Positions 7,805 to 57,468 of a stretch of DNA of 64,000 bases are shown here, in pieces. Every line of letters begins with the position of its first letter. Within the stretch, counting starts at the first letter, position 1. The notes beneath the pieces are model-generated. The model did not search any database and was not told the origin of the DNA. It saw only the letters and a program-made list of their open reading frames with translations. The position numbers and the translations under genes are program-made. Origin of the DNA: Monosiga brevicollis MX1 (Eukaryota > Opisthokonta > Choanoflagellata > Craspedida > Salpingoecidae); the NCBI RefSeq assembly GCF_000002865.3, contig NW_001865044.1, positions 773,282 through 837,281 on the forward strand, given 5' to 3'.

Positions 7805-9575
7805 TTACTGCAGCTCCGAAGGCAGAGGCTTGCCCTCGGCCAGGGCCTTCTCGGCAGCAATCAAGGTGTTGACACCATCGATCATGGTCTGCACGAGCTG
7901 CACCTCCGACTTGCCGAGACGCTCCTTGTTGGAGAGATCGTAAACACCGCCGTCACTCTCGCTGTGCTCACCGTGAATGCCACGGGGCTGGAGGCGAAGC
8001 TTGGCGCACCACTTCTTAAAGTTGGGGTGGGCGCCGACCTTGGGAAGCTGCACGTGCACGGAGGCACGCATGCCAGTACCGCAGTTGGTGGGGCAGCTAT
8101 GGATGTAGCCGAGATGATCGTTGTGGGCAAACTCACGGCCCGCTGCCTTGACTTGCTCCTCAATGGCACTGATACCGCGCACCAGGCGTTCAAAGACCTG
8201 CTTGGCGTCACCGCCGCTTTGCATGGAAATGATACGCATTTGATCCTCCTCGTTGACCCAGACGAGGAAGGTCTTCTCGTTGTTGTGGAAGATGCCACGG
8301 CCCTCTGGCCAGTCGCGGTTGGCACCAGCCGACTCCAGGAAGCGGTCGCCCTTCTTGAAGAGGAAGTGGTCAGCCACCAGCTGCTTGCGGTCCGCCTCGC
8401 TCATGCCGTTGAGAGGGAAGTACTTGCCAGCCAGGTCGCCCTTGAGATTGGCGAGACCCTTGGTGACGAGTGACTCGACCTCACGGCGCTGAGCACGCGA
8501 ACAGCCAGGGGAGAGACCGAGACCACGAATGTTGCGGCCCACACGGATGCGAGTCGAGAGCACGTATTTGCCTTCGGGGTCAACGGTGCCCTTGAGCTTG
8601 GCGGCGTCAAGGTCCGACACGTGCTTGTCTGAGGGCTTGTAGCCGCCGTGATAGTCCTCGATAACCGCGTCGAACAGCGGGCCGAAGACCGAGTAGCACT
8701 CTTCGTCACCAGCATATAGGCCCACGCCTAGTCGGTAGGAACAAGGGAGGAGGGTCCGGTGACAAGTGTGGGGTGAGGAAACCACGACATTCCCCGCGGC
8801 AGGGTGCAACGCGGCGCTGAGGACACACCGGAATCGGGATTGTCCACGCCTGACTGGATGGCACGCTCAAGAGTGAAGCCGTTGGGCGTAATCTTGTCCT
8901 TGAGCTGCTCGTAGACGTCAACGGTCAGATGCTTGGAAAGCAAGGACGTGCAGCCCTTGGGAAAGTAGGGAAAACCAGCGCCATACTTCTCCTATGCATG
9001 TCAAGCAAATCAGCAAAATCAATCGCACAACAAAATACGCACAACACAAAAACAAATTTGAAGAATAATATTATTCTTATGTTCATCAACGGCAGCCGCC
9101 TAGATGCTCAACTCTTACCTCCTTGGCACCACCAGTCTTGACACCCAGTTGGCGCTCGATACGCTTGACACGATCGACAATGTCCTAAAGCAATGAGCAA
9201 GCGCGCCGGTGTCAAAGTGAGGCCAGATCGTGTCGTGCTCTCGTTGTCAAGGTCAGCTGATGCCACTGGCAGAGAGAGCCTCGACAATGGCAGAGGCCAC
9301 CACCACGATCAGGAGCAGACCAGGAGAGGTGGCGAGAGGGCACAGAGACACAACTCACCTGAAGCAAAGCACCAGACTTATCCTCAGTCGTGGCTGTGGC
9401 GCCAAAGGCAACGGCACCGGCAGCCACACCAGCACCCACTGAAACACAACAAGCGATCAATGTGAGCGAAAGCCAGTGGATGTCAGTCATGTCAGTGACA
9501 GATGGGACTGATGCAGATGAAAAGGGCAGCTTTACTCGTACCTTTTAGGGCAGAACGAATGGCAGCGCTGACCAT
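7805..9575 (-). CDS. Guanidino (phosphagen) kinase, arginine-kinase-like loops, putative mitochondrial
   Basis: Reversible transfer of phosphate from ATP to a guanidino compound, most likely arginine. Five exons splice cleanly in phase: 9542-9575, 9359-9438, 9119-9184, 8829-8991 and 7805-8727, giving 421 residues. Seen: the GS loop (PDSGVGLYAGDEE), STRIRVGRN, NNEKTFLVWVNEED, the active-site cysteine in CPTNCGTGMRASVHV, and the specificity loop RGIHGEHSESDGG with its glutamate. The short GS loop and GEH-S-E loop are of arginine-kinase type. The RDWPEGRG and LGKSEVQLVQTMIDGVN segments look more like creatine kinase. The N-terminus (MVSAAIRSALK followed by an Ala/Gly-rich hydrophobic run) resembles a mitochondrial presequence or inner-membrane segment. 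Substrate cannot be settled by eye; lombricine or taurocyamine kinases share similar loops. Confidence 0.92.
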
Positions 9576-10197
9576 GACGACGGTTTAACAGGGCAGTGGG
9601 CACACAAGAATCTGATGAACAAGGTCTTTTTGGATGAGCCAACAGGAAAAAAAATGCCCGGTACCGACCAGCGATCGGATCAGTCACGAGTGTGTGCCCC
9701 ACCGAACTTCTTCCTGCTTCCATGCTAGCAACCATATCCTAAGGTAAGCGCTCCCTCCTGATTGAGGTTGTGGACGACAAGGGTGGGGTCAAGAAGGTCT
9801 GAAGGGCGGACCGACCTGGACCATCTTTCCGCCCAAACCCAACGACACGAGGCACAAGGGACGAGCAATGATGAGCTCAGGCGGCTTCAAGTCGCTGATC
9901 CACCAGCCAGGGTCTCCGCCCGCTTCCATAGGAAAGGGGGAGGACGAGCCGGGTTGGGGGAGCGGGCGAAGGGTGTGTGTGTGGTTGGGTGAGTAAGGTG
10001 GCAAGCTTAACGGAGAGGCATGGGTGTGGTCGTTGGCCCACCAGGAAAGAAGAAGCACACCCTCTCTCTCTCCTCTGGCTGCGGAAACGTGAATTGTTTA
10101 AAATGCAAAAGATGCTCAAAAATGATATCGTCGTGCACAGGATGACACAGGAATACATATGCTCACTCTATTCGTCTACTGCAATTTGCTTCTTGCC
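9576..10197. promoter_or_regulatory. Divergent intergenic region (phosphagen kinase / SELENOT)
   Basis: About 620 bp between two outward-pointing start codons, so it should contain both promoters. I see no clear TATA box or repeat. Short open frames here (for example 9532-9735 minus) have no recognisable similarity and I do not call them. Confidence 0.4.
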
Positions 10198-11255
10198 ATG
10201 GCGCGCGTCACCGTCACAACTGGGCTGTTCGGGCGTGCCCGGCAGCGCCTCGGAGGCCTGTCCCTGCTCGTCATGGCCGCGGCCCTGCTTGGCATGGTCT
10301 TGCTGGCTCCATGTGCTGAAGCTGTCCCGGGCAGTGATGTCCTCATTGAGTTTTGGTGAGTCTGAGCCAGCCTGGCATGGTGCGAGCGGCGTGAGCAAGC
10401 GCTCCTCGTGCATCTCACGGTCGCGCACCCGTTGTGCTGCATTCTGAACATAGTACCTCGTGAGGCTACGCCAACGCCTTTAGGCAAATTGCACAGCACC
10501 TAAAGGTTTGCTCATCCTGTACTTCGAGAACTGGTGGCGTTGACAGCGCATGGCCTTTGACTGTCAGTACCTCACTTTGGGTCGTTTGCTTGGCAGGCTC
10601 GCCATCCCCACTTGACAATTCAGGGCGCCAACGCCGAGCCGCCTGCCTGGCGACAGAGTCTGGCGCAGTTTTTGCAGCTCGGCATGTGGCTGGGCTTTGG
10701 CCTCTTGTTCATTGGTGACTGGCTCTTTGCCCAGCTCAACATGCGGCCGCCCGAGTTCTACGAGACGCTCAAGGCCAACAAGGTACGGTCCGGCCACGGC
10801 GACATCAACCACTGGGAGGTGGCCGTCCCAACCTTGCCTCCAATGACCACAGCCGGAACTTGTGTGGCCCATCTTTGCCCCCTCGGGATCTCCTATGCCA
10901 GTTTTACCGAGCCATACAGCAGAGATCGGTGGCGCGTCAAGGCTCACGTGGTTGTTGCTCTCGGTTGGTAGATTACGGCCTTTGCCGTTCTCTTCTTTGT
11001 GGGCAGCACCGTGGCTCAGAATCTTTTAACCACGGGCGCATTTGAGATTTATGTGGATGGTTCGTGAGGGCATGACACCCCGTTTGCGCGCGCACACGCA
11101 CACACCTCTCATTCGTTTTATGGTGCGAGTGAGGGAACTCACGAGTCGTGGATGCTTGTCGACTCGCCGCCTGCGTAGGTCGGCTGGCCTGGTCCAAGCT
11201 GGAGCAAAATCGCTTGCCTTCATGGACCGAGCTAGATCAGCTCATCGATCCGTAA
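10198..11255 (+). CDS. SELENOT: Selenoprotein T (SELENOT), Sec encoded by in-frame TGA
   Basis: ER thioredoxin-like oxidoreductase of the Rdx family. Exons: 10198-10355, 10454-10505, 10597-10782, 10972-11059 and 11179-11255. All phases agree and give 186 residues including Sec (human about 195). The redox motif C-T-S-U is split by intron 1: the Cys codon joins TG from exon 1 with T from exon 2, and TGA at 10461-10463 is read as Sec, followed by GYANAFRQIAQHLK. Later hallmarks are LTIQGANAEPP, a hydrophobic membrane stretch (LGMWLGFGLLFIGDWLF), LTTGAFEIYVDG and the C-terminal LAWSKLEQNRLPS block. The N-terminus is a signal peptide. An upstream ATG at 10159 is in frame, but 10198 (MARVTV) gives the better signal sequence. 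A SECIS element follows 110 bp after the stop. Ordinary gene finders would truncate this gene at the TGA. Confidence 0.95.
10461..10463 (+). other. Selenocysteine (TGA) codon of SELENOT
   Basis: The TGA is in phase with both flanking exons and sits exactly where the CxxU selenocysteine of selenoprotein T is expected, followed directly by the conserved Gly-Tyr pair. Confidence 0.93.
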
Positions 11256-11362
11256 TTCTCCTTCACCTTGTCCTTGCGGCTGCATGTCTTCGTTCCAGAT
11301 TTTGCCGCGCATAACTAGACCCCGTTGAGCCATGGCTGGTTTGGTTGGGTGCTTGCCCCCCT

Positions 11363-11413
11363 TTGTGACGCTCACGAACGAAACAGCTCATTGCTGGTTC
11401 GTGGGCTGATTTA
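11363..11413 (+). promoter_or_regulatory. SECIS element in SELENOT 3' UTR (type II-like)
   Basis: Seen: a 5' quartet strand TGAC at 11366-11369, then a 10-bp helix between GCTCACGAAC (11370-11379) and GTTCGTGGGC (11397-11406) with one G-U pair. The apical part starts GAAA, with the unpaired adenines expected of a SECIS, and is capped by a CAGC/GCTG mini-helix. The 3' quartet strand is TGAT at 11407-11410. This matches the eukaryotic consensus TGAN...AA...NGAN and directs Sec insertion at the upstream TGA. Confidence 0.9.
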
Positions 11414-12436
11414 GCATGTTGTTGCCGAACATGGCTGCTGCTGTGTACCCCGCTGGGATGCAGCCGGTTCGACCTTTGTTTCATGCTGGGTTACAAACTC
11501 CATCCATTCTGCGCTTGGACCTGAACGGGCCCGACTCGTTTCCACGATCCCATGCCTCAACATTCCATGTTAAGGCAGATAATTGACGCTGTTGCGACAC
11601 CAAAACAGGATCTGATACCTTTCTTTTGATACGTCCTTGGCAGAGTAAGGCACTTCGTAATGGAGTCATAACGTCTCATAAGGACCGGAAGACTGACTGG
11701 CATCGCCATCATGCCAAGGCATTTAGGCGTTTGGAGGCTATCGCTGAATTTGAATCGTCTGAAGCAGTGGGAAAATTTTCTCACTACTGTCTGAATCATG
11801 GAAAAAAACATTTCGCATCTCAAGCCATCTCGAGGTGCTGGCTTGTCTGCGCTGGTTTCTCCTGTATTTTCTTTAGATTTTAAAAATTATCAATGATCAT
11901 GTATGGTAAAGAGTTTTGGTGGCTGATTGACGTCGGATTGCTGTTAGCTCGGTGCGCCGGTATCAACATCTCATATCACTGCTGCCGATGCTCAAGGTTC
12001 GCGCTCGCCCTTGGCCGCTTCATCATCTACATCAGCATGTGAATCAGTTTTCAAGAATTCATAGGAACATTTGAGGCCAAATTCCCTTTTGCAACAATAT
12101 TCATTCTGAACGTTACTATTTTCGCGCGCACTGTTGTGGAAGCATAAACAGTCTGGGGTATTTTGGGCTCGGTATTCGCTTCCTTCAATTGATTCCATTC
12201 GGGGGAACGGGGGGTTCTGAGCACGTCAAACACATGAAACACTGAGAAGCCGCCCCCACCCCCCCAACAGATGCCCCACCCGCCCGAAAAAACCAAAAAA
12301 TACAAGACACACGAGCCTATTCAAGCCTAAATTAATGCAAAGCAGAAAAACTGAATTGCAATCAAATTTGGAGACACAAGTGGTACTCCTTGACACACGC
12401 ATGAGTCAGGTAGGACGTCGCCTGTTGAGCCGAGCG
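11414..12436. other. AT-richer spacer, no gene seen
   Basis: Between the SECIS of SELENOT and the stop of a convergent WD40 gene. Base composition is clearly less GC-rich than in the genes. A C-rich run (CCCCCACCCCCCC) lies near 12256. Minus-strand frames such as 11557-11823 lack protein-like features. Confidence 0.5.
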
Positions 12437-14729
12437 TTAGTAAAGCAGCAGGCGCTGGCCCGAGATGAGGATGCGCGTGCCGAGCATGGCGCAAAGCGGG
12501 GCATCAGCAGTGACGTCACAGGTCCAGCGGCGGAGACCATGATCTTCATGGACCACGATGCTCTTCATGAGCACATCGCCATCCTCAGCAACCGACACGA
12601 TGCGAGCCGAAGTAGTAGCCACGGCCATGCAACGTGGAACGGGCTCGTTGGGGCGGCCATGGTCCCAGACGGAGCTCAACTCACACGACTTGGTCGCCCA
12701 CTCTAGGCGCCAGGCAGACACCGAGCCGTCTGAGCTGGCTACCACGGCAAAGTGACCAAGACTGGAAGTGAGCCAATCAGCATCGTTCAGGCGACCGCGA
12801 CCTAGCTCAAAGCGGGCATATAAATGCAGCTGTGCCTCGCGGCGTTCCAACAAAGCCAAACAGCCATCGGCCCCAATGCTCACGATGCGGGTGGGAGACC
12901 AAAAAACGAGACGGGTCACCCAGTGTTCGTGACACTTGACCGTGCTCAGCGAGGTGGTGCTGCGGTTTCCGGGCCGCCACAATCGCACCGTCTCGTCACC
13001 GGCGCCGCTGATCAGGTAACCCTCGCAGTAGGCCAAACATCGAATCCAGCCAAAGTGGCCCACTAGTGTCTGCAAGAGCTGCGCCTGGCCGCGTTCGCTG
13101 TCAAAGTCCCAAACGCGCACGTGATGATCGCGACTGCCTGAAAAGACGTGCCAGCGGTGGCTGTGCGGCGGTACGTGCAGGGCAAGCGCCGACACCGTCG
13201 TATCGTGGGCACGCCAGGCATGCAAACCCAAGCAGCGCTGACCCGCCACCTGAAACAAACGCAGGTCGCCGTTGGCCAGGCCCACGGCAAAGACATCACG
13301 GCCCGTGGCTAGGCTATGCACGGGGGGCTGATCCTCATTGAGCACGACGCGGGGAACGGCCAGGGTGCTGTGAAGAGCAACCAGTGCCTGTGCGCCTGCG
13401 GGCGTTAGTCCAAGGACGTCAGCGTACATGGTCACGAGCTGGGCGGCCAGGTGTCCAATCGAAGTCAGCAATGCTTGTTGGTGTTCTCGGGCCAAGCGCG
13501 CCAACTCGAAGGCCGCATCCTCATCGGCGGCTGCCACCTCATCCAGTACGTGCTGGGGAAGTCGTTGCTGCTGACGGGCGTGCAGGGCGGGTAGAGCTTG
13601 GGCTGCACTCGTCAACCATGCCGTTGCCTCGGCGGCAATGGCTGGTGGCGCGCAGAGTTGGGTGCTAAGACCAGCACGGAGCGCCAGGAGAGCGGAGGCC
13701 GCTTCGTCGTTGGCCCAGCAGGCGTGCCAAGCAGTGCGTGCAAGCTTGGTCGCTGCGTCGAGTAGGCGTTCGATGAGGTCGGCTTCAAAATCCTCTTCAA
13801 GCTCGGGATTCGGCTCTGGCTGCCCCAGAGTTGCAGCACCCAGGAAGAGACTGGAGCGCCGGCGACCAGGGCGAGGGGATGCAGCTGGAGAAGCTGAAGG
13901 TGATGGCGAGGGTGACGGGGAGGGGGACCGACTGCGATCGCGGTTGATGCCCAAGAGGCTGCGCCGACGGAGTCGCGGAGTCGTAGGCGTGAGGTGGTGT
14001 GCGGCGGCCATGGCTTGCTCATGTTTCTGGCGTTGTGCAAGCTGGTGGTGGCGAGATATGAAAATGGTCATGGCGAGCTGGAGAAGGTGCAAACAGCGGT
14101 GAAGCTCGTAGCGATGCAATTGGCGCAGTAGGCGTTCGCTTGCAGCTGGCCCACGGCGTCGGGCGCACTCGTCACGAATCCGAAGGGCCAGGGCAAGCCA
14201 GGACTGGCCCGTGGCGGGGATGTCAAATAACTAGGGATTTCGCATGCCAATTACAAGTCATGGGAATGGTCGTGGTAAGATGGGTAAAACCAATACTGAT
14301 AAGTGGAATGTGGAAAAAGTGAGCAACACCGAGAACGAGCTGGGCCGGGATCCTAACGGTCAAGGAGCTCACCGTTGCAATGCTGGTGAGCGTGTGACGG
14401 GAGGGCAGATTGACGGCAGGCGGACGCGGGGGGAGCTGGGCACGAGAAGCACGGCGTGAAGGGCGCGGGGAGGCTGCTGCTGCGGAGGGAGGCTTCTGCT
14501 TGGTGGTGACGGGAGGTTTGACGGGCTCAAGATCGACGAGAAGTTCCTGAGCCAGGAGTACTGCCAGCTGCGGTGTCACAACATCACATTGAAGGCTGCG
14601 AGCCGCGTGCAGCTTGGCCTCGAGCGCCTCCTGCTCTGGATTGGACTCGTCTCCAACGCCACTCAGTGCCCCCGAGGCGGGCAACTGATGCTGGCGACCA
14701 GCCGTATAGGCCGCATAGCGCGTCGCCAT
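12437..14729 (-). CDS. WD40-repeat protein with Ser/Pro-Arg linker
   Basis: Two exons, 14373-14729 and 12437-14230, joined in phase, give 716 residues. The N-terminal third is predicted helical, with a proline/alanine-rich segment and a striking run of Ser-Pro repeats (RDRSRSPSPSPSPSP, near 13,910-13,945) that resembles SR-type phosphorylation sites. A helical region follows, then about six WD40 blades in the C-terminal half. Recognisable blade ends include SGSRDHHVRVWDFD, SGAGDETVRLW and ASSDGSVSAWRLEW. WD40 propellers are protein-interaction scaffolds; I cannot assign an orthologue. It is divergent from the receptor kinase gene across a 950-bp spacer. Confidence 0.82.
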
Positions 14730-15468: not shown

Positions 15469-15680
15469 CGGTTTCCAGTTTTTGTCCATGAGCATTGGAT
15501 TAGTACACGTATTTCGATGGCTTTGAGCATGTGACCCGACCTGCCTGGCTCTGCCCCTGCCCTGTCCTGCAACGAGGTTGACGGTGGGGCTGGACAAGGG
15601 GTTTGGCCCGCGACCTGGATGGCCTTTTGCTTGTCTCCCTCACGAGCGGCCTCGTTCAGCCATTCGACATTTTTCTCACC
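14730..15680. repeat. Divergent spacer with AAGCAGC/CAG repeats and (GA)n tracts
   Basis: Spacer between the WD40 gene (minus) and the receptor kinase gene (plus). It contains a seven-base AAGCAGC tandem array running into (CAG)n at about 14874-14931, a GT/GA-rich stretch at about 15295-15345, and a pure (GA)n run at about 15440-15468. No gene recognised. Confidence 0.8.
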
Positions 15681-18600
15681 ATGAGCAACCGTCCCTGGGC
15701 ATCGAGGCTGCCAGGCTGGGGCCTGCTGTGCATCACCTTGGTGCTCCTTTGTTGGCCACTCGCTGCCCAGATCGACATGCCGGGCTGTCCCAAACATCTT
15801 ATCGACCCCGCGGATGGCTTTGGCTTCCTCTGCTTTGACTGCGACAAGCCCATGCTCTTCAATCGCTACATCCCCGTGGGCGCGACTTGCGTGCTCAGGC
15901 CCACATCGAATCTGACCGACTCTTGCAGAGAGAACGTTTATTGGACCAAGTTTACTTGTGCTCGTGATAACCGTTTCTATCTCGACCCAAGTGGCGTCAT
16001 GTCTGATTATTTCTCGGCCGTCAACTGCGTTGTTTCCTGGTCGGCGGCCTCAAATCGTCCCAGCCTGGATTGCGACGGTTCTGGTCTGCCGCGCTTACAA
16101 AAGCTCACTTCCCTTCCGTATGGCGGTGCCCCTGCTGACTTGGAGCATCTACGCGTCCGCCATCATCGTGTCATGGACATTGCCTTTGTAGATACATACG
16201 GCTTGGCCAATTTGACCAGCTTTGACGTCAGCAACAATCGAATTACAGAGCTGGGCGTCGGCGCGTTCTCCTACTTGATGCGACTCAGCCATCTCAATCT
16301 TAGCTCCAATCGGCTTACCGTTGTCACCCCTCGCGACCTTCCCATGCTCCAAAATCTGCAAACTCTGGACCTCAGCTCCAACCCGCTTCAAACCATCCGT
16401 ACCGACCTTTTGCTTGCCCCCATGCACGCCGACTGCACCTCCATACGACTCCCTTCGGCCTGCGGACCAGTCCCCGGCTGCCATGCCCTTCTTCCAGGAC
16501 CACCCGCCGCTTCAACCAGAGCCACCACCGAAGCATTATCCACCTCCACCACCGTTGTCGGGGCGACAACCTCTGTTGTCACATCAAACACAACCGCCGC
16601 CTCCAGTACTCCGGCCTTTGCCCAAGACTGCCACGTGGTTAGCCATGCCTCGCACTGGCCTTGCGCCGCTGCTCACGGACAAGAGCCAACAAGCTTACCT
16701 TTCCATCAGCTCTGCGATGGTCACGTTGACTGTGCCGACGCCTCGGATGAGCAACAGTGTGAGCAGCTATGGGACACAACAGGCATTGACGTGCTTGATG
16801 ACTGCACGGGAAGCCGCTTCCATGCCAGCTGGCGTTACGGTGTTTTCTTCGGACGGCCTCTTGATGAGATGGCCGTCTACCCCTGTCTCTATGTTTCCCA
16901 CCTCCCGTACACGGTGTTTGTGGCTGACGTCTTTGTGTTGATCGACGACAACGTTCCGCAGTGGCGGGGTCCTTACATTGCTGTTGCGCAGGCCGTGGTT
17001 GATTTCTACCTAACTCGGCATCGGCTCCTTGCCAACGGCACCGCGTTTGGCCACGAAATTGGCATCGATCTGAAGCTGGATAATCTCCAACTGCCATTTC
17101 CAAGCACCGCCTTCAGCACCCTCATGCCCGCTACGACCGCCCGCATAGCGGTACAAAGTAGCTCGGGCAGCAATCTCCTCTCCCTGGCCGTCATCCTACC
17201 CATCGTCGTGGGTTTATGTGCGCTCATTCTAGGTCTGATCTATGAGCGACGCCGGCGGCTTCAGCGTCGGTTCGTTTTCATGCTTGTCTCTGTGCTCCAG
17301 CCCGGTCGACGCTCTTCCCTTCACGCATGCTTTCGGCTCGATAAACTACAAACCTGTGCGGCCGAGACCCTCCTCATCTTGACAATGACATGTCTGACAA
17401 TAACATGGTCATATCTGTATGGGTCTCATCGAATATCTGAAATGTCTGCAGTTTATTGACGCAGCAACTCGGCGAGCAAAGCAACGATCTTCTTGAGGCG
17501 CGGTGAGCCGTCTCAATCCTGTTGTCTCGGCTATCACCACCCGCCTGCTTTTTCCCGAGTCCCAATACCTGCGGTCGATGTGACTTTACCAAAACGGGGC
17601 CAGGTGCCTCGGATCAAGCTGCAGTTCTCATTGAATTCTTGGATGGCCACCCGTTTTTTTGGACGCCATGGACTTAGCTTGATGCAAGCTTTGAGAGCAA
17701 GCGGAGCCGCTGACGGAAATCACACAGACGTGCTGGCCAAGTTGCAGGTACGCCTTCTCGTCCTCGACTCACCGTTTCGGCCTGCTTTGTTCGGGACGCT
17801 TGTCACATGCTCTTGTTTGTGGGAAACGGATGGTGCCGATACACAGGCGTATGAACTGGATGCTGCAAGTGTCGTGGTTGATGGCCCGACGCTTCACCGT
17901 GGCAACTTTGGTATAGTGCGCAGAGGCCTTATCTGTGCTACGCATGAAGACATTGTTGCCAAATGCCAGGCTACTGGGCTTTCTCAGGCTGCCATCTTGC
18001 TGGAGGTCTGTGTGTGTCTGGGGCTTCAAAATTGCCCTTCCTCTATGTGTGTGGAGAGTGTGTGCTCAAGCATCCTGTTTGGTATTGTTCATGCGATCTC
18101 CCGAACAAAAACACGATTTGTAGACAACCATGCTCATGTTGGCTCAAAGTCCCAACGTCGTGGGGCTCAAAGGATTTCTGCGCAACGGAGATTTGGGCTT
18201 GATGCTCTGTCTCGAATATTGTGCAGGTGCGCGCCTCTTTTTCCGCACCAGCTGTGAAGTCAGGGCCGAGCCCTGAGCAACGAGCCACATACACCAAAAA
18301 AGGCCTGCGAGCCTTGCTGAATGCTGCTGGGCAAGCGTTCTGATATCGCCTTGTCCTGCCTAATCCCAGGGGGCAATCTGCTCCAAGTCTTACGAGGCTC
18401 ACGAGCTACCTCTAGCCTGAGCCCAAGGCATCTGCTGCAGGCCTCGCTGCAAACCGCACGCGCCCTACAGTACCTGGTATGAATGAGTCCAGACAGTGTC
18501 ATCCGCAGCATTTCCCATGGCTTCCACTCTTGAGTGCTCCGTGTTTTGATTGGTGCTAAACTCAATGGATATGCTTTTTGGCAGAGTCACTTGGGGATGA

Positions 18601-19190
18601 TACATCGCGACGTGGCTGCGCGCAACATTCTTGTGCGCTCTGTCAGCGACCATGGCTTGCAGGTCAGCATGTGCTCGTGACAATGCTGGACTCTGGGTGT
18701 TTGTCTGTCACATTCACGTCCTCGCCGCCGTTCAACAGGCTGCTTTGGGCGACTTTGGGCACGCACGGCTGGTGGGGCGTGATTCAACACCCTCCATTAA
18801 CCAACAGAGCTCGGGACTCGGCAGTACCGTTTCAACGGTGCAGGAGTCGAGTCCAGATGAGTATTATCGCCAAGCTAGTTTGATCGAGACGGCAGCACGG
18901 TGGCAGCCACCGGAAGTGTTGGCACAAAGCCTGTTCACATTGGCCAGCGATGCGTGGTCTTTTGGTGTTTTGTTGTATGAAATATGGACGTTGGGCCAGG
19001 TACCGTACGGTGATTTAGTTCGCGAAGCAGATGTTGTAGCCGCCATCCTTCAAAACGGACGGCGACTCCCCGTGCCTCCACGCCTCGCTGAATTGCCCGA
19101 TCGTGTTTCCAAGGTTTGTCACCCCTTTGCCACTCGACATGTTACAGCAGACCCCCTTTTCTCCTGCATCCTGTCGTTCTTATTTCATCT

Positions 19191-19231
<41 letters not shown>

Positions 19232-19438
19232 TTCGCCAACCTTGCTCATTTTGTTCTGCTTCTTCTTCGATCCTCTATGGTCGGGTCGGGTGCAAACACT
19301 GGCGCTGGTGCAGATGTACCAAAGGTTGCAGGAAGATGTTGCACCTCGGCGACCCGGTTGGCAGGCGGTGCTCCGCGAGCACACCCTGGCTCTGCAGACC
19401 CTGACTTATCCTGATCCCCACGTCAATTCAGAGGCTTA
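15681..19438 (+). CDS. Receptor tyrosine kinase with LRR and LDLa ectodomain
   Basis: Start chosen at 15681 (MSNRPW) because it gives a clean signal peptide ending near LAAQ. The ectodomain has a Cys-rich N-terminal cap, three or four leucine-rich repeats (LTSFDVSNNRITELGVGAF, LSHLNLSSNRLTVV, LQTLDLSSNPLQTI), a Thr/Ser-rich stalk and an LDL-receptor class A module ending CDGHVDCADASDEQQC. A further Cys-containing region leads to one membrane helix (LAVILPIVVGLCALILGLIY) and a basic stop-transfer. The kinase is split over exons near 17850-18005, 18130-18228, 18371-18477, 18583-18663, 18739-19113 and 19314-19438. Seen: LHRGNFGIV, VAK lysine, MIHRDVAARN (the HRDxAARN signature of tyrosine kinases), LGDFGHARL, activation-loop tyrosines DEYY, and RWQPPEVL. 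The juxtamembrane exons (17270-17750) are uncertain, with two competing frames. The first glycine of the nucleotide loop is His, so activity should be tested. Confidence 0.88.
19193..19228 (+). repeat. Poly-T tract (36 bp) in receptor kinase intron
   Basis: Uninterrupted T run just upstream of the last kinase exon, inside the intron between about 19113 and 19314. Confidence 0.97.
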
Positions 19439-42590: not shown

Positions 42591-42796
42591 TGCCAATGTC
42601 AGATAAAATATTATCTGACATTGAGTGCCGCACCGAACAGGCTGACATGCTGATATTTTCCAAGCACTTGCGCAAGCGTCATGAGATGATGGGTGTGCCA
42701 GGCAGTCGGAAGATCCTGATGGTGCCCATCCCCTCCCCCCTGATCCTCGCATTTTCCAGCTGAATCTTGATTCGTTTCTTGCCACGGAGCAGCGTC
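42212..42796. repeat. Divergent spacer with (GT)n, (CTGTAT)n and (CT)n
   Basis: Spacer between the TMX3-like and peroxidase-like genes. A (GT)n tract at about 42466-42538 runs directly into CTGTAT repeats (42539-42557) and (CT)n to about 42588, followed by a 13-bp-arm palindrome. Confidence 0.93.
42594..42623. repeat. Perfect inverted repeat, 13-bp arms, 4-base loop
   Basis: Left arm CAATGTCAGATAA (42594-42606), loop AATA, right arm TTATCTGACATTG (42611-42623). It lies about 170 bp upstream of the peroxidase-like start and just 3' of the (CT)n run. It could form a cruciform or be a binding site. Confidence 0.95.
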
Positions 42797-44255
42797 ATGA
42801 CAGTCAAATCGCCTTGGCAGCAAGCTTGGTTTTGGCCTGCCCGTTGCTTCCGGGTTGTGGTGTTTGCACTTGTCTTGTTGGTGACGATTCATGTCAGCCC
42901 GGTCGACGCGCTGTGCACGCCTGCAGCTGTGGGATGCGTCTGCCAAACGCCGCAGATGACATGCAGCGCCTATCAGAACCTGGAAGCGCGCATCTTCAAC
43001 ATGTCACAGATGGAATTTGGTGACAAGCGCATCGCCAGTGGGCCACTCAAGCTTCTTTTTCATGATGCGGCCGAGCATGATCAACACGCGGAGGACCCGC
43101 TGGGCGTGGACGGCTGCCTCAATTGGGAGGATCCCATGAACGCGGAAATGGTCGACACCTACCAGGATGAAGATATCTTTGCCCTTGTTGACGACCTTTG
43201 GCTCAGCTACTGTTCTGAAATCTCCCGCGCCGACTTTATCGTCATGCTCGCGGCAGCTACCCTCCGCGCCTATGCAGGCGATATTCTCTATAATTACAAG
43301 TTCCCCTTTGCCCCCTATCTGGGGCGGACGGACCGCGTCACTTGCACCTATCGTGACTATGACCGCCTCGGCCTCTCGCGCCTGCCACGCCTCTCTCTTA
43401 ATGTTTCGCAGTCGGAAGTCGACCGCGTCCTCGTCGAACAAATGGGCTTGGCACCAGACCACGCTGCCACGCTCATGCAAGCACATGTGCTGGCCATTTA
43501 CAAAACACCCACCAACGCCATGTATGCCACCGTTGGCCAGGAAGGCATTTGGACCGACGGGCACATGCTTCGTCTCTTGACATCCACCTTCACACGTGTG
43601 TCTGCTTATGGGCAAATTTACCCCTTGGTGTACAACCTTCCTGACGATTACATCATGCGTTACGTCTGGCGCGCTGACGTGTCGCCCGCCGTTCTCGCGG
43701 CCGGCTATTATAGCCCTACCTTTTTCCTCAACCATGACATGCATCCCATCTTTCCAAACGTTTGGAACATCCACGAGGAAGGCGTTACCTGCGGTCCTCT
43801 GTTTGAGCTGACCAGCAAAGGTTCGTCCCGCTAGAGCAAAGCTGCACCCCCTTACCCGTGTGATGGCTCTCGCATGCCTTTCTTGAGACCAAACCAGGCT
43901 GCTCTCACCTCTGTGGGTCGTTGCCAACACAGGCACATTGCAGGCGCTACCCCGAAACGCGTCCAGTTCTTGCGAGGTGGACGAGGAACAGGTGCAGCGT
44001 CTCATCGAATACGTCTCCCTTCCCGGTCTGTTTTGGCAAAATTTCAGCCAAGCCATCACAGCTCTCAGCTTGGTGGGTGTCAATCAATCAGAGCTTTTCT
44101 GCCCTTGTGGTGGATGCAACCGCTCCTTCACCACCAACATCCAGAACTTGGCCAGCAGTAGAAATGAGGCAGTCCGACAAAAACCGTTTTCAGCCATCAT
44201 CCTTGTTCTCGTGGCCATGGCCATCGCGCTGCTGCTTGAGCAGGAGCATCAATAG
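42797..44255 (+). CDS. Secreted/membrane-anchored haem-peroxidase homologue with altered distal site
   Basis: Two exons, 42797-43820 and 43933-44255, joined in phase, give 448 residues. The start at 42797 follows an in-frame ATG at 42767; both give a signal peptide ending near VSPVDA. The body resembles the plant/fungal/bacterial haem peroxidase superfamily. It has a distal helix PLKLLFHDAAEHD with the catalytic His, GVDGCLNWEDP, ISRADFIVMLAAATLRAYAG (the VSxADxxxLAA block), and a proximal-helix candidate APDHAATLMQAHVLA with the haem-ligand His. In canonical enzymes the residue four before the distal His is Arg; here it is Lys. The C-terminus has several cysteines (CPCGGC) and ends in a hydrophobic helix (FSAIILVLVAMAIALLL), so the protein is probably tethered outside the cell. 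Activity is uncertain. Confidence 0.8.
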
Positions 44256-49561: not shown

Positions 49562-52500
49562 ATGGCCCTCTTCGAACAGGCACGCTCCCCCCCCCCCCCC
49601 CCATCCCCTCATTCTACTATCCGGCTATCCGCTCCGTGTCGCACGACCATGTCGACTCTCGAGCTTTTTTGCAGCAACAGCATGCCATCCTGCGCCACCA
49701 CCATCTGATGCATGGGCTCGCCCGATATTCTGCACAGGGGTCGCGCGTGTGGATCAAGACATCGGAGCGGTGGTGTCCTGCAACCGCCGCCAGCAACGAT
49801 GGCACCAACACCGTCTTTGAAGGCGATGATGGCCAGGTACACGCCATTGCACCTTGACTATCCATATCATCCAGTCCTGGCATTGACACAAAGAGCAGTC
49901 CCAAACCACTCGACTGCCCGGTCTGTCTGGGCCTCACAACTCATGGCTGCACTGTCGTCGACATGACGTTTCGCAGTCATACACGGTCGGCAACGACCAG
50001 CTGGGCCCAGATACAGTGACGCACATGCATCAGACGAGCATTGAGGGTGTTGAAGACATGGCCAAGCTCGGCGATCTTCATGAAGGCTCACTGCTGTACA
50101 ACATCAAGCTGCGCTACAAGAAGGACCTTATTTACACCTACATTGGCTCCATCCTCTCGGCCGTCAATCCGTACAAGAGCCTTCCGGGCCTTTATGACGA
50201 TGCCAAGGTACAGTCAGCATATGATGAGGTGTTACCCAGTCTCTAAGACTACCCAGGCGCAGTCGTGGCGCATGCCTCACCAAGTGCCGCAAAATGTCTG
50301 ATCTGTCTCGTCAGATCAACGAATACGATGGCAAGGACATTGGCGAATTGCCCCCACACATTTATGCCATCGCCAACCAAGCCTACCGCTCCATGTGGAA
50401 AAAGTATGACCCTTGCACCCCCGTGTTGACCCGCATGCAAGGCCTGCATTCACGCGTCTCACCAAAACGGTCTTGCGTGTGCTTACCTTACCTCTCGCTC
50501 TCGGCGCTTTTGCGTCTGCTTCTCTTGTGTTAGCTCGGCCAATCAGGCTGTTTTGATTTCTGGTGAATCGGGTGCTGGCAAGACAGAGTCCACCAAGTTC
50601 ATCCTGCGGTACCTCTCCTACCAGAGTAATGACGTCAATAAGAAAAAGGGCAAGGAAGGTCGCAACTACGAGGAGCAGATTCTGCAGTCCAGCCCCATCC
50701 TCGAAGCTTTTGGCAACGCCAAGACCGTGTACAACAACAACTCGTCTCGGTATGTCTCGCCTTTTTGATTGGCCCAAGGCATCGCTTTTGTTGAAGACAC
50801 TCTCATTTCCTGGCTTTCCAATGTGACAAACCTACTCTCAGCTTTGGCAAGTTTATCCAGCTCAACTTTGCGGCAACCGGTGCCATCGAGGGCTGCAAGA
50901 TTGTGGATTATCTTCTCGAGAAGAATCGCGTACGTGTCATCTTAAGGCTTTTGTTCCTTGTTCTTGGAAAAAGCGCATCAGGGAAGACGGGATGACGGGA
51001 CACTGCTCTTGACATCAGACTCGAGCCTTCCCTGCCCGAATTTTGAGTTTGCCTTCTGTCCCCTCATGTCTCATGTCTGATGTGTTTCCAGGTGGTGCGC
51101 CAGAACGGCGGCGAACGTAACTTCCACATCTTCTACGCCCTGCTCGCGGGTGGTCTCGGCAGCAAGTTTGGTCTGTCTGCTGACCCCAGCCAGTACCGCA
51201 TCACCTCCATGAGTGGTACCTGGGATGTCGATGGCATTGATGACAAGGCGGATTGGCAGGCCGTGGAGCAAGCGTTCCGGACCATGAACTTCTCTGACGA
51301 ACAGATGTCGGACATTATCACCGTCGTCGCAGCCATTTTGCACCTCTGCAACATGAAGTTCACCACGGCCGGTGGTGCCCAGGTGGCCACCCAGGCTGTC
51401 CTTGAGCAGGTCTGCCAACTGCTCGGCATCGAGGAGGCTGGCTTGGCCGAAGTTTTGACTCAGCAAAAGCGTGTCCTCCGTGGCGAAGAGATTTACACCC
51501 CACTTGACGTGGACCAAGCCGCTGACTCGCGAGACTCGCTGGCCATGAACCTCTATGCCCGCACCTTCCGCTGGATTATCAGCAAGATCAACGTGTCCTT
51601 GCGTGGTGACGAATCCTTCCAGTTTGTGGGTGTCCTCGACATTTTCGGTTTTGAGAACTTTGAGTTTAACAGCTTTGAGCAGTTCAACATCAACTACGCC
51701 AACGAGAAGCTGCAGCAATACTTCAACCGGTGTGTCTTGAGCTTCCAACGAGCGTCCTTTTCAAAGCCCAAACATGTCGCACCTGATGCGCGAGACTGGT
51801 GCCTAATATTAACTGTTTGTGCTTGTTGTTTTTAGACACATCTTCTCGCTCGAGCAGCTCGAGTACAACCAGGAAGGTATTGACTGGAGTGACATTGACT
51901 GGTACGCCAAATTCCCGCGGCCCCTTGCGCCTGGTCCTCACTGAGACGTTGATGGACACTTTGACTCATGATCGCCTCACACAACCCCAAGGGTTGACAA
52001 CTCTGAGTGCCTGGATTTGATCGAGCGCAAGCTCGGCGTGCTGTCGCTGCTTGACGAAGAATCGCGTTTCCCACGTGGTACGGACGAGTCGCTGCTGATC
52101 AAGCTGCACTCGTCCCACGAGGAGGCGGCTCACTACGTGCGCCCTCGCGTGGCCAACACCAAGTTTGGCATTCGCCATTTTGCTGGCGAGGTCATGTATG
52201 ACGTGACAGGGCTGCTTGAAAAGAACCGCGACACCTTCCGCGAGGTGCGTTTTACGGCCCCGTAGCGACTCAAAAGAGGACAGAGACGTGACTTTCTACC
52301 GATCTGAAATGTGGAATGGGCGTGAGCTGCGTGCTTTGGTTTCCGGCCTTGCATATCCTTCTCCAACTGACCGACTCTTGTGCTTCTCGGATACGGTGTG
52401 GGCTGTCTCAGGACGTTGCCGAGCTGCTTCAAAACTCGTCCAACGATTTCATCTTTGACCTTTTCGAGTCGAGCACCGGCGCGAGCCAGAACAAGTCGAC

Positions 52501-52729
52501 TGCTCGCAAGAAACCCACTGTCAGCTTTCAGTTCAAGGAATCGCTGTCCTCGCTCATGGGTACTTTGGGCAAGGCCGAGCCCTTCTTTGTTCGCTGTCTC
52601 AAGCCCAACATGAAGAAGATTGCGGACCACTTTGAGGACGAGGTCGTCCTCAACCAGCTTTCCTACTCTGGTTTGGCCCGATGCATTTGCATTGTCTTGT
52701 CATCGTTCTTACCTTGGCGCTCTCCCTCA

Positions 52730-52769
<40 letters not shown>

Positions 52770-55700
52770 AACACACGCATACACACATGCAAATGAGACC
52801 AACCTTCCTCTCACCCTCGCTGTTCTTCAGGTATGCTGGAGACCGTGCGCATTCGTCGGGCCGGCTACCCCGTGCGTCGCAGCTTCGACGACTTTCTCTT
52901 CCGGTACAGTGCGCGCACCCCGTTCGCGTTTCTCCTTGCTCTTTGTGCACAAAAGAACAAAAGGGGCACTATGAGCCTTTTTGTTTTCTTTTGTTCTTGT
53001 TTTTTTGTTTTTTGGTTCAAGGTGTCACATGAAACAAGCTTGCCCTTTTAAAGCAAATTATGCTGCAAAAAAGGGTGTTAAACAACTGCGGACATGATGC
53101 AACTCTTTTACGCATAGTTCATCTGAACGACTATCTGTTGAATAATCATCACCATCTTTCGACTGATCCGCACAACTCCTTTTACACTGGCCCTTCCCGC
53201 TACCATCCGTTATCTTCAAGCTGACAATTTTGTTTTCTGTTCGTTTTTGTTTTTGATTTTTGTTCTCTAGGTATCGCGTGCTGTTGCAAGGGCTGAGCAA
53301 GGCCGAGGGCGCACCCGAGCAGAGCCGAGTCCTTCTGGGCACCTACGATCAGAACAACTGGCAGATTGGTCATAGCAAGGTTTTCATGCGCGAGGGTCTC
53401 GAGAATCGTCTTGAGAAGGACCGTCATGCACGCCTCAAGGCAACCGTTCAGAAGATTCAAGCCTTCATTTTCGGCTCTATCCAACGCCGCCGCTACATCA
53501 AGATGCGCAAGGCCGCCGTCCGTGCGCAGAGCGTCATTCGTATGTACCTCATTCGCGCGGAGCACCTTCGTCGTGTCAAGGCGGCGACTAAGATCCAGTC
53601 AGTTTATCGTGGCTACAAGGCACGCGAGCTTCGTGCTCAACTTGCCGAGGCAAAGCGCATCGAGGAGGAGCGCCGTCGCGAGGAGGAGCGCCGCCGCGAG
53701 GTGAGTGAGAGAGCCACGCAATCCAGATCTGCACATAGATCGGTGCCCTTATGCCGCCCCAATAACCCTCGACCTATGGTCACGGAGGCCGTGTTTCGTC
53801 TCAGTCTTGTTTTGTTTCATCGGCTCACATCTGGTCTGCTGTTGAATGCTAATCAGGAGGAGCGCCGTGCTGAATTGAAGCGCCTCGAAGAAGAGGCCCT
53901 GGCTGCGGCTGCTCAAGAGGCCGCGGAGCGGGAAGAGGCTGAACGTCGTTTGGCCGAGGCCAAGCGTCGTGCCGAAGAAGACCGTCAGCGCAAAGTCGAC
54001 GAGGAGCGTCAACGCCAGGAGGATGAAGCACGACGCATGCAAGAGGCCATGGCTCGGGCCAAGCAGCTCGAAGCTGAGCAGAAGCAGCGCGAGGAGGATG
54101 CCCGCCTGAAGGCCGAGGAGGCTCAACGCCTGCTCGAGGAAGCCGAGCGCATGAAAAAGGTGCGTCTATTTTTGTCTCTGTGTGCTGCGTTATGCCCGTT
54201 CGTCGCGGCAGCCATCGTGCATGCGCCTTCGGTTGAGCGTACAATGGCTCGCGGAAAGCTTGCTCCGCCCTCTGACGCATGCCATGTGCTTTTCAAAGAT
54301 TCAAGAGGAGGCCCGTAAGGCCGACGAAGCCCGCTTGGCCGAAGAAGAGCGCCAACGCCTCGAGGCGGCAGCGGCCGACGAGGCAGCGCGCCGCGAAGCT
54401 CAGTTTGAGGAGCAAGAGGAGGAGGAATACGAGGAGGAGGAATACAAGGAAGGCTATCTTGGCATTTTCCGTGGCATGCTCAAGAACCTCAAGCGTCGCT
54501 GGTGCGTGCTGCACGAGGGAACTTTCATGTGGTTCAAGGCTCGCCAGGACTTTATCCACGCTGGCTGGTTGACCAAGATTGGCGGCGGCACCTCAACGCT
54601 GGGCCGCAAGTCCTGGAAGCGCCGCTGGATGGCACTCAAGGGAGGTGAACTCCATTACATGCCCTCTCAGGAGGAACAGGCCACTGTCCTGGGCGTCGTC
54701 GATATTCAAAAGGCTGAAGCCATCACTGTAGAGGCCGATGCCCCCGGCAAGCGCGAGTTCTGCTTTGCGATTGAAACCTCCAAGCGCACTTACCTCATGG
54801 CCGCTGATAGCGAGCAAGAGATGCAAGAGTGGATCGAGATTCTCAACATGGTCAAGGGCAAGTCAGACGAGGAGATCAACGCCATGATGGCTCAGGCCCT
54901 GGTCAACCCTCGCCATGCTGAGGGGACCGTTGAGACAGAGGATATCCTCTCTGTAGGCCCCACCAACACCCAGGACGTGGAAGGCCACCCGTCTTTTGTC
55001 ATCATGACCGCTGAGCGCGTTCTCAAGTTTGTCGCCAAGGATCAGACTGAACTTGATGACTGGTGCCGCCTGCTGACCCCGCGCCGCCGCGAGAACCTGT
55101 CCCCAGACATCAACGATGCCTCAGTCACAGAGCGCGGCTGGATGCTCAAGGCCGGTGGCAAGGGCAATGCGTTTAAGCGCCGCCGCTGGTTCGTCTTGCG
55201 TGGTGACACCATCAGCTACTACAAGAACAAGGTACGACATCTCCGCACGCCGGCGCCCCAATCTTTTCTTTCTTCCGCTTTTTATAGCCACGTAGCCTGC
55301 TTGCCAGCCGATGGTGTATCTGCACGTCTGCGCCATGCGTACCCGCTTCTCGTTGGTGATCTGTGGTCTCACGCCTCCTGTTCGCCGTGTGCCTTGGCCT
55401 AGGATGATGATTACACGGTGGGCACCATCCCTCTGAACTCACTTTGCTCGGTCATCCCGCCGGATGAGTCGCTGGCACTGCAGCGCAACGACTGGACCTT
55501 TATCGTCCACAGCAAGCACAAATCGTTCTTCCTCACCTGCAAAACGCAGGCCGATTGCAATCGCTGGATCAACGCAATCCAGGACGTGATCGACAACTCG
55601 GCACAGATCGAGACGCCCATGGAGAAGCTCATTGACGAGCTCAAGATGGCTTCGCCCCTTGAGGTGGAGCAGATCTACAGCAGCCACCGCGTGCTCACCT

Positions 55701-57468
55701 ACACATCGTCGGCTCTGAAGTCGCCGCTGCTGCCCCTGCCCTATGGCGAGATTGTTGTGCCCAACGCTGATCGCCAGTACGAAACCCTGGCTGCCGAGGC
55801 CGTCAAGATCAGTGCCTCGCTCCTGCCCTCGTTTGAGGCTGGTAAGAGCAAGTACGGTACAACGGAGAACCCAGTCGATCTCATTAAGAACGTTGTACAG
55901 GCCGTCTTTGATGTCAACAAGCTCCGCAACGAGGTGTATTGCCAAGTCATTTGCCAGACGACCAATGCACCCAACCCCGGCTCGACGCTGAACATGACGC
56001 ACTGGCATCTCTTGGCGGCACTGTGCTGCTCAACTCTGCCCAGCCGCAAGTTTATTCGCTTCCTCAAGTTCCACCTCAAGCGTACCATGGACATGCGCGA
56101 GGAAGTGGGCGAGGACGTTGCCAACGTGGCCCAGTTTTGCCTTGACAGTATCAAGCAAACCAAGTCGCGCGACTTCCCGCCCTCCACCAAGGAGATTGAG
56201 GCCATCATGTCGGGCCAGGGCTTGACCGTGAGCGTCGGATGCGTAGGCTCACGAACGATCGATTTGCCTGTCAACAGCAGTACGACTTGCGGCAGCATCA
56301 TCAAGCGCGTCAAGGCCGAGCTGCAGCTCGAAGAGAGCCGCAACGGTTTTGGTCTTTTCGAGACATGTGGCTCCATCTCCAAGTTCTTGGAGGACAAGTA
56401 CTACGTCTCTGATGTGCTCAGCAAGTGGGAAAAGTACGAGGCGCACGGTCTCAATCCGGCCGAGGGAGGCTGGAAGCTCGAGTTTAAGCTTTTTGCCTTT
56501 TACGACCCCATGGCCCCGGATCTCTCGAAAACGGAGAAGGAGTTTTTGTTTGAGCAAGCCTACGAGGCTGTGATGAACCGCCGCTACCCGGCCAACGAGG
56601 ACACGCTGATTCAGCTTGCAGCGCTGCGCACCCAATTCGTGGTTGGTGACTACGAAGACGGGGCTTACATTTCGGATTTGGTCAAGGTCCATCCTGCCCA
56701 ACAGCCACAGCTCCTTGCCTCGGATTCTAGCAGCGGTGGAACGCTGAAGCGTGCGGGTACCATCATCAAGGGTACGCTCAAGGGCTTGGGCATGAACACG
56801 CTCCGCAAACTTCGCGGCGGCACCATCAAGAAGACGGGCGAGGTCTCGGACGCAGAGATGAAGAAGATCAAGGACAAGATTGTGGGCAAATGGAAGACCA
56901 TGCAGGTGTGTTTGCGACATAGGGCTGCAAGAATCGACATGCGTTCAGACTCAGTTCGTGTGGCAGCAATCAGAGGATGGGGTTTCATTTCTTATTTTAT
57001 TTTTTTATCTCAACTTGTTTGATTTGTGTTTCCTAGGGTATGAACAATGACGAGGCGCGTGAGGCCTACATGTCCATCATCCAAAGCTGGGAAGGCTACG
57101 GCAGCAACCTCTTTGAGGTGACTCAAACCGGCAAGAAGGATTGGCCCAAGGAGATCTGGCTCGGCATCAGCTTGGAAGGCGTCAGCATTTTCCCCGTCAA
57201 TGAGTACGTGTTGTTTCCGCTGATGACTCCTCCGATTGTTAGGCGCACAGCACTGATGACCACCACTCTTGACTTGCTGTGCACAGGCGGGAGCGGCTTG
57301 CCTTCCATCGCTACGAGAGTGTGCTCAGCTTCGGAGCCCCCGTACCCAACAAGTACAAAATTTTGGTTGAGGGCGATGGATCCATGGTCTTTGAAACCAA
57401 CATGGTGCTTGAGATTGCCAAGCTGATGAAATCATACATCAAGGAGGTGGTGAGCCGAAGGCAGTAGA
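49562..57468 (+). CDS. MYO10: Myosin X (MYO10): motor, 3 IQ, charged helix, PH domains, MyTH4-FERM
   Basis: Barbed-end actin motor of filopodia. A short first exon at 49562 (MALFEQ) is plausible but its donor is not canonical. Motor exons run from about 49740 to 53420: [11 protein letters not shown]-loop (near 50568), NNNSSRFGKF switch 1 (split by an intron at 50750), [18 protein letters not shown] switch 2 (near 51640), FFVRCLKPN, and the converter/relay [10 protein letters not shown]. Three IQ motifs follow ([38 protein letters not shown]; 53450-53640), then a highly charged Glu/Arg helix to about 54440. A PH domain begins [20 protein letters not shown] and is interrupted by a complete second PH (AGWLTKIGG...[12 protein letters not shown]) before it resumes, the split-PH layout known from myosin X. 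A third PH starts near 55135 (RGWMLKAGG). MyTH4 (about 55640-56210) and FERM (56215-57468) end the protein. Several introns include an (AC)n-bearing one near 52735. Confidence 0.95.
49589..49602 (+). repeat. Poly-C run after first myosin exon
   Basis: About 14 C bases, downstream of the proposed MALFEQ exon. Confidence 0.85.
52734..52792 (+). repeat. (AC)n microsatellite in myosin X intron
   Basis: AC dinucleotides, then ACGCAAACAC-type variants, in the intron that separates the exon ending near 52672 (LSYSG) from the [12 protein letters not shown]-encoding exon. Confidence 0.93.

Follow-up and report, generated by a model that had tools for sequence, protein, structure and literature searches.

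A predicted selenoprotein T gene with an in-frame TGA in Monosiga brevicollis, and the selenocysteine machinery genes of its genome

A locus of Monosiga brevicollis is very probably a functional selenoprotein T (SelT) gene, and its active-site "stop" codon most likely reads as selenocysteine (Sec), because the genome carries genes for making and inserting that amino acid. The locus lies within a 64,000-nucleotide stretch of DNA (G000:C51:773282-837281), here called the window, and the genome searched spans 39.5 Mb in 57 contigs. A Munc18 exon fragment of this genome is identical over 56 residues to PDB 2XHE, which PMC3693963 identifies as the Munc18-syntaxin 1 complex of M. brevicollis. As a member of a known family the gene is unexceptional, and we give a full model of it in spite of an active-site codon that looks like a stop; the interest is modest and lies chiefly in correcting a published statement on tRNA-Sec.

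The selenoprotein T gene

The predicted gene has five exons on the forward strand (window 10198-11255; Table 1), with introns of 98, 91, 189, and 119 nt, all GT..AG, and a coding sequence of 561 nt for a product of 186 residues. The TGA is its sole internal stop, the other 185 codons being open. The initial annotation had claimed that splicing between exons 1 and 2 places the TGA in frame as C-T-S-U, that the downstream exons keep the selenoprotein T frame, and that the redox motif is divided by intron 1; when the spliced coding sequence is translated, the coordinates prove correct, the frame stays open through to the TAA, and intron 1 (phase 2) falls between bases 2 and 3 of the Cys codon (TG/T), splitting the motif. 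The predicted splice junction (10355/10454) reads TG followed by TACCTCGTGAGG.

Table 1. Features of the SelT locus (window coordinates) and of Sec-related loci elsewhere in the genome (contig coordinates)
Feature	Position	Strand	Description
SelT exon 1	10198..10355	+	Hydrophobic N-terminal segment (putative signal/anchor), presumed first beta strand, bases 1 and 2 of redox Cys codon
SelT exon 2	10454..10505	+	Remainder of C-T-S-U-G-Y motif plus residues 3' of motif
SelT in-frame TGA	10461..10463	+	Predicted selenocysteine, residue 56
Alternative AG acceptor in exon 2	10482..10483	+	Exon would start at 10484 and skip the TGA in frame; candidate rival splice form
SelT exon 3	10597..10782	+	Contains the insertion's first hydrophobic segment
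SelT exon 4	10972..11059	+	Second hydrophobic segment, GAFEI strand
SelT exon 5	11179..11255	+	Ends in TAA stop, 11253-11255
SECIS core	11366..11410	+	TGAC, 10-bp helix, GAAA bulge, 4-bp mini-helix, TGAT
SECIS core parts	11366-11369; 11370-11379 / 11397-11406; 11407-11410	+	TGAC; helix; TGAT
tRNA-Sec	G000:C55:481253-481338 (L001:1501-1586)		65.7 bits, cut-off 47; anticodon TCA by ARAGORN
SelW	G000:C48:783270-782687 (L041)	-	C-G-A-U, TGA one base before intron
SPS2	G000:C47:113293-111462 (L038)	-	In-frame TGA, K-G-U-G-C-K-V-P-Q
GPx	G000:C56:1134328-1134480 (L042)		N-V-A-S-F-U-G-E-T across splice, TGA-bearing
Sep15-like gene	G000:C52:431935-432320 (L045)	-	Appears to have Cys (C-N-C)

Assignment to the selenoprotein T family, also made in the initial annotation, agrees with the profile searches, in which the predicted protein scores over the curated cut-offs of both Pfam Rdx (59.9 bits, cut-off 22.6, E 2.7e-16) and NCBIfam CXXU_selWTH (73.7 bits, cut-off 34.2, E 1.1e-20), and the C-x-x-U motif that marks members is present as C-T-S-U, with TGA at the Sec position. 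The Rdx match runs over residues 48-185 for 72 profile positions. An insertion divides the domain into a CxxU half and a GAFEI half, and two hydrophobic segments (residues 91-110 and 133-151) lie in it. A further hydrophobic segment lies near the N terminus, where the 19-residue hydropathy reaches 2.42 within residues 16-46. A hydrophobic insertion between the halves distinguishes the architecture of SelT from that of SelW, and the genome's own SelW, at 86 residues, is without one. A PF10262 search of the genome did not match the SelT gene in the window; the splitting of the domain by introns is the probable reason. No relative turned up among viral contigs, where three stretches fit a pattern and none was confirmed. 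We found no description of this gene in the portions of the open-licence full-text literature available, and published selenoproteome surveys may list it.

Several other genes or candidate genes lie in the window. An ATP:guanido phosphotransferase of the arginine/creatine kinase type (251.3 bits) is at 7805-8866 on the reverse strand, and the others are on the forward strand. At 15582-19404, one ORF has LRR matches and a match to LDL-receptor class A just under cut-off, and a later ORF has a protein-kinase domain, making this a receptor kinase candidate. An ORF at 42764-43834 weakly matches haem peroxidase PF00141, under cut-off. Within 51047-57022, the ORF at 55403-57022 contains PH, MyTH4, RA-like, and FERM_M domains, and the ORFs from 51047 onward resemble what we take to be a myosin motor.

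The predicted SECIS element

A stem-loop 3' of SelT has the anatomy of a eukaryotic SECIS, with a GA quartet (TGAN, NGAN), a long helix, and apical adenines, and it lies on the strand of the gene, in its 3' region. The 10-bp helix, TGAC/TGAT quartet, and apical adenines had all been proposed from a first reading of the DNA, and each is where it was placed, with 110 nt separating the TAA stop from the quartet. The apical A's sit in a bulge, like those of Form 2. Rfam SECIS_1 (RF00031) matches 11357-11418 with 25.0 bits, under the gathering score of 35 that sets membership (E 0.11, for the whole library and 4 kb of sequence). From its anatomy and context, we predict that the element works like a SECIS.

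A SECIS-shaped pattern has a single occurrence on the two strands of the 64-kb window; the average over 150 random sequences of window length (first-order Markov) is 0.11. This comparison is flattering, given that the pattern was written after the element had been seen. Folding energy by itself sets the element only modestly apart: its z-score is -1.86, and 8 of 200 shuffles reach an equal or better energy. With E allowed up to 1, the element is the sole SECIS_1 match between 9000 and 13000. A genome-wide RF00031 search missed the window's own element, so it gives no genome-wide background for SECIS matches; its sole return, on contig C34 (19.4 bits), was set aside, there being no SECIS_1 match at that place at E up to 5.

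Selenocysteine genes in the wider genome

The initial annotation had deduced a working Sec pathway from the SelT gene and had named the absence of tRNA-Sec or eEFSec as evidence against it. Both are present, as is SBP2, and together with SecS and SPS2 they make up the Sec-decoding trait in this genome, so that genes for synthesis as well as decoding are found; the PSTK candidate is weaker. The tRNA-Sec has a TATA-like box at about -29. In control searches, all 14 prokaryotic genomes gave loose tRNA-Sec matches and five of them matched over the cut-off. A second match in Monosiga (C57, 37.6 bits, under cut-off) is a tRNA-Ser according to ARAGORN and was rejected.

Among the protein genes, the N-terminal part of eEFSec matches eEFSec (5izk) with E 4.8e-67, and more weakly archaeal SelB (E 2.1e-29) and EF-Tu (E 3.3e-16); for its C-terminal part, eEFSec_4th gives 77.2 bits (cut-off 27). 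The C-terminal part of SBP2 matches with E 1.7e-22. SecS is represented by five collinear matches over cut-off, which when joined give E 1.7e-56; in three of the five there is a single stop, which we attribute to matches running on into introns. The SPS2 fragments match selenide, water dikinase 1 (E 3.3e-34), the TGA aligning with the Thr of that chain (KGTG). The joined eEFSec and SPS2 pieces fall under the NCBIfam whole-protein cut-offs (selB and selD), which is to be expected of partial proteins. The PSTK candidate consists of two collinear weak matches, and the joined fragments have selen_PSTK_euk as their best family at 70.3 bits, under the family cut-off of 382.

The selB search returned 16 matches in all, and those read in translation beyond eEFSec itself were set aside. 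Judged by their translations, these include matches on C21 and C45, to which we give no family name, as well as C49:434204, which we take to be EF-1-alpha-like, C55:69540 (presumably EF-Tu-like), C30 and C49:372498 (both presumably EF2-like), C43 (presumably eIF2-gamma-like), C54 (which we take as eIF5B-like), C55:2543542 (IF-2-like, we assume), and C52 (presumably eRF3-like). Likewise, an L7Ae match (L022) was not taken as SBP2, being judged similar to what we assume Rpp38 to look like, and a kinase at C56:1407977 was not taken as PSTK, being presumably KTI12-like.

We inspected SelT, SelW, SPS2, one Sep15-like gene, and three places with GPx matches, two of which were read. SelT, SelW, SPS2, and one GPx have TGA at the redox position; the second GPx has Cys there. 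The Cys of the Sep15-like gene presumably stands where animal Sep15 has Sec, and the genome thus mixes Sec and Cys forms. SECIS_1 matches lie near three of the four TGA-bearing genes (SelT, SelW, and SPS2), all under the gathering score of 35. The SelW match (24.2 bits; L041:2106-2170, reverse strand) is on the same strand as the gene and 517 nt past the stop; that of SPS2 (21.7 bits; L038:2078-2141, reverse strand) is on the same strand and downstream of the exons. For the TGA-bearing GPx, the 1.5 kb following its matched exon yielded no SECIS_1 match.

Predicted core folds of the SelT, SelW, and SPS2 elements place the adenines under a mini-helix, in either a bulge or an internal loop, with the SPS2 core fold begun at an upstream TGA rather than at the quartet. 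Folding energies do little to set the SelW and SPS2 elements apart, since shuffles equal them in 58 and 41 of 200 cases, respectively. For SelW, the 73-nt stretch has a best fold of another shape, and the SECIS shape arises only from folding the core by itself. The SelT and SelW elements have the stretch CCCCTTTGTGACG in common, up to the quartet. Both SelW and SPS2 elements have an apical C-AAC-C, compared with the AAR quoted in PMC2746813.

A 2018 study (PMC6188563) reports that both choanoflagellate genomes were screened and that no tRNA-Sec was found. The Monosiga tRNA-Sec (65.7 bits), together with the machinery genes, corrects that remark. According to PMC5330540, the sensitivity for tRNA-Sec is 67.5% with tRNAscan-SE v1.23, 96.2% with ARAGORN, and 98.8% with RF01852, and the low value for tRNAscan-SE v1.23 could explain the miss. 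The same source gives specificities of 83.0% for ARAGORN and 90.2% for RF01852; these two alone are thus no proof of the Sec trait, and the protein genes matter. A phylogeny in PMC2746813 (2009) already included Monosiga SBP2, which implied the trait earlier. Provided that Monosiga retains SelT, SelW, SPS2, and a Sec-containing GPx, the common ancestor of choanoflagellates and animals probably used selenocysteine, and its use was probably not lost in the Monosiga lineage; given the earlier SBP2, this is expected rather than surprising.

Alternative readings and relation to known systems

An in-frame TGA would terminate translation in most genes, and the SelT codon could be a real stop or a lesion of decay, leaving a recent pseudogene or a source of truncated peptide only. 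We regard this as extremely improbable: the lone stop falls exactly at the Sec position of the family in an otherwise open frame, the splice sites are intact, a SECIS lies 3' of the gene, and SelW, SPS2, and GPx likewise have TGA at redox positions. That the stem-loop is a chance hairpin, with the real SECIS elsewhere in the 3' UTR, is very unlikely. Its SECIS_1 score below the Rfam gathering score and the 8 of 200 shuffles that fold as well are what such a hairpin might give, but the TGA quartets, perfect 10-bp helix, and A-rich bulge co-occur once against the 0.11 expected (for a post-hoc pattern), the element lies 110 nt 3' of the stop on the strand expected, and SECIS_1 matches nothing else in 9000-13000 at E of 1 or less.

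Splicing could also remove the TGA, if the main mRNA used the acceptor before 10484 and encoded a protein without C-x-x-U. Exon 1 joined to 10484 does stay in frame and stop-free, and the acceptor (GCCAACGCCTTTAG, followed by G) looks usable; however, the 30 nt bypassed encode the catalytic motif, which would be deleted, and the Rdx match starts at residue 48, ahead of the motif so lost. A SECIS would be purposeless with the TGA spliced out, and the genome retains the genes of the Sec machinery as well as TGA in other redox motifs, all of which leaves this reading highly improbable. Outright skipping of exon 2 breaks the frame, and retention of intron 1 meets a stop at once. There is a similarly slim chance that the gene yields both a Sec form and a selenium-free, motif-less form through the choice of acceptor in exon 2 (start 10484); were this true, the intron inside the redox motif would be a selenium-dependent switch.

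If the SelT TGA is read as Sec, as we favor, then Ser-tRNA-Sec would be phosphorylated by PSTK and converted by SecS, with selenophosphate supplied by SPS2. SBP2 would bind the kink-turn of the SECIS and recruit eEFSec with Sec-tRNA-Sec, and the ribosome would read the UGA (codon 56, in the C-x-x-U redox motif) as Sec. Animal SelT is an ER protein, and by analogy with it the Monosiga product may be a membrane-anchored thioredoxin-like oxidoreductase.

The best sequence match to the predicted protein among solved structures is MIEN1/C17orf37 (Rdx12; PDB 2ljk, E 1.8e-07), which belongs to the same sequence family and matches in two parts, a CxxC half and a GAFEI half. Unlike Monosiga SelT, it has Cys at the Sec position, and in its 117-residue chain the matched parts nearly adjoin, so that it is without the hydrophobic insertion. 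The SelT element shares with eukaryotic SECIS elements (RF00031) the quartet, as GTGAC / CTGAT, the long helix, and the apical A's; it differs in having G before the TGA, where the consensus has A. With SELENOT (the SelT/SelW/SelH, Rdx, CXXU family), Monosiga SelT shares a C-x-x-U-G-Y motif near the start of the domain, the GAFEI and W-S-K-L-E motifs of its second half, the N-terminal hydrophobic segment, and the hydrophobic insertion separating the two halves. It differs in having C-T-S-U where vertebrate SelT has C-V-S-U, and the position of intron 1 within the Cys codon may be a further difference.
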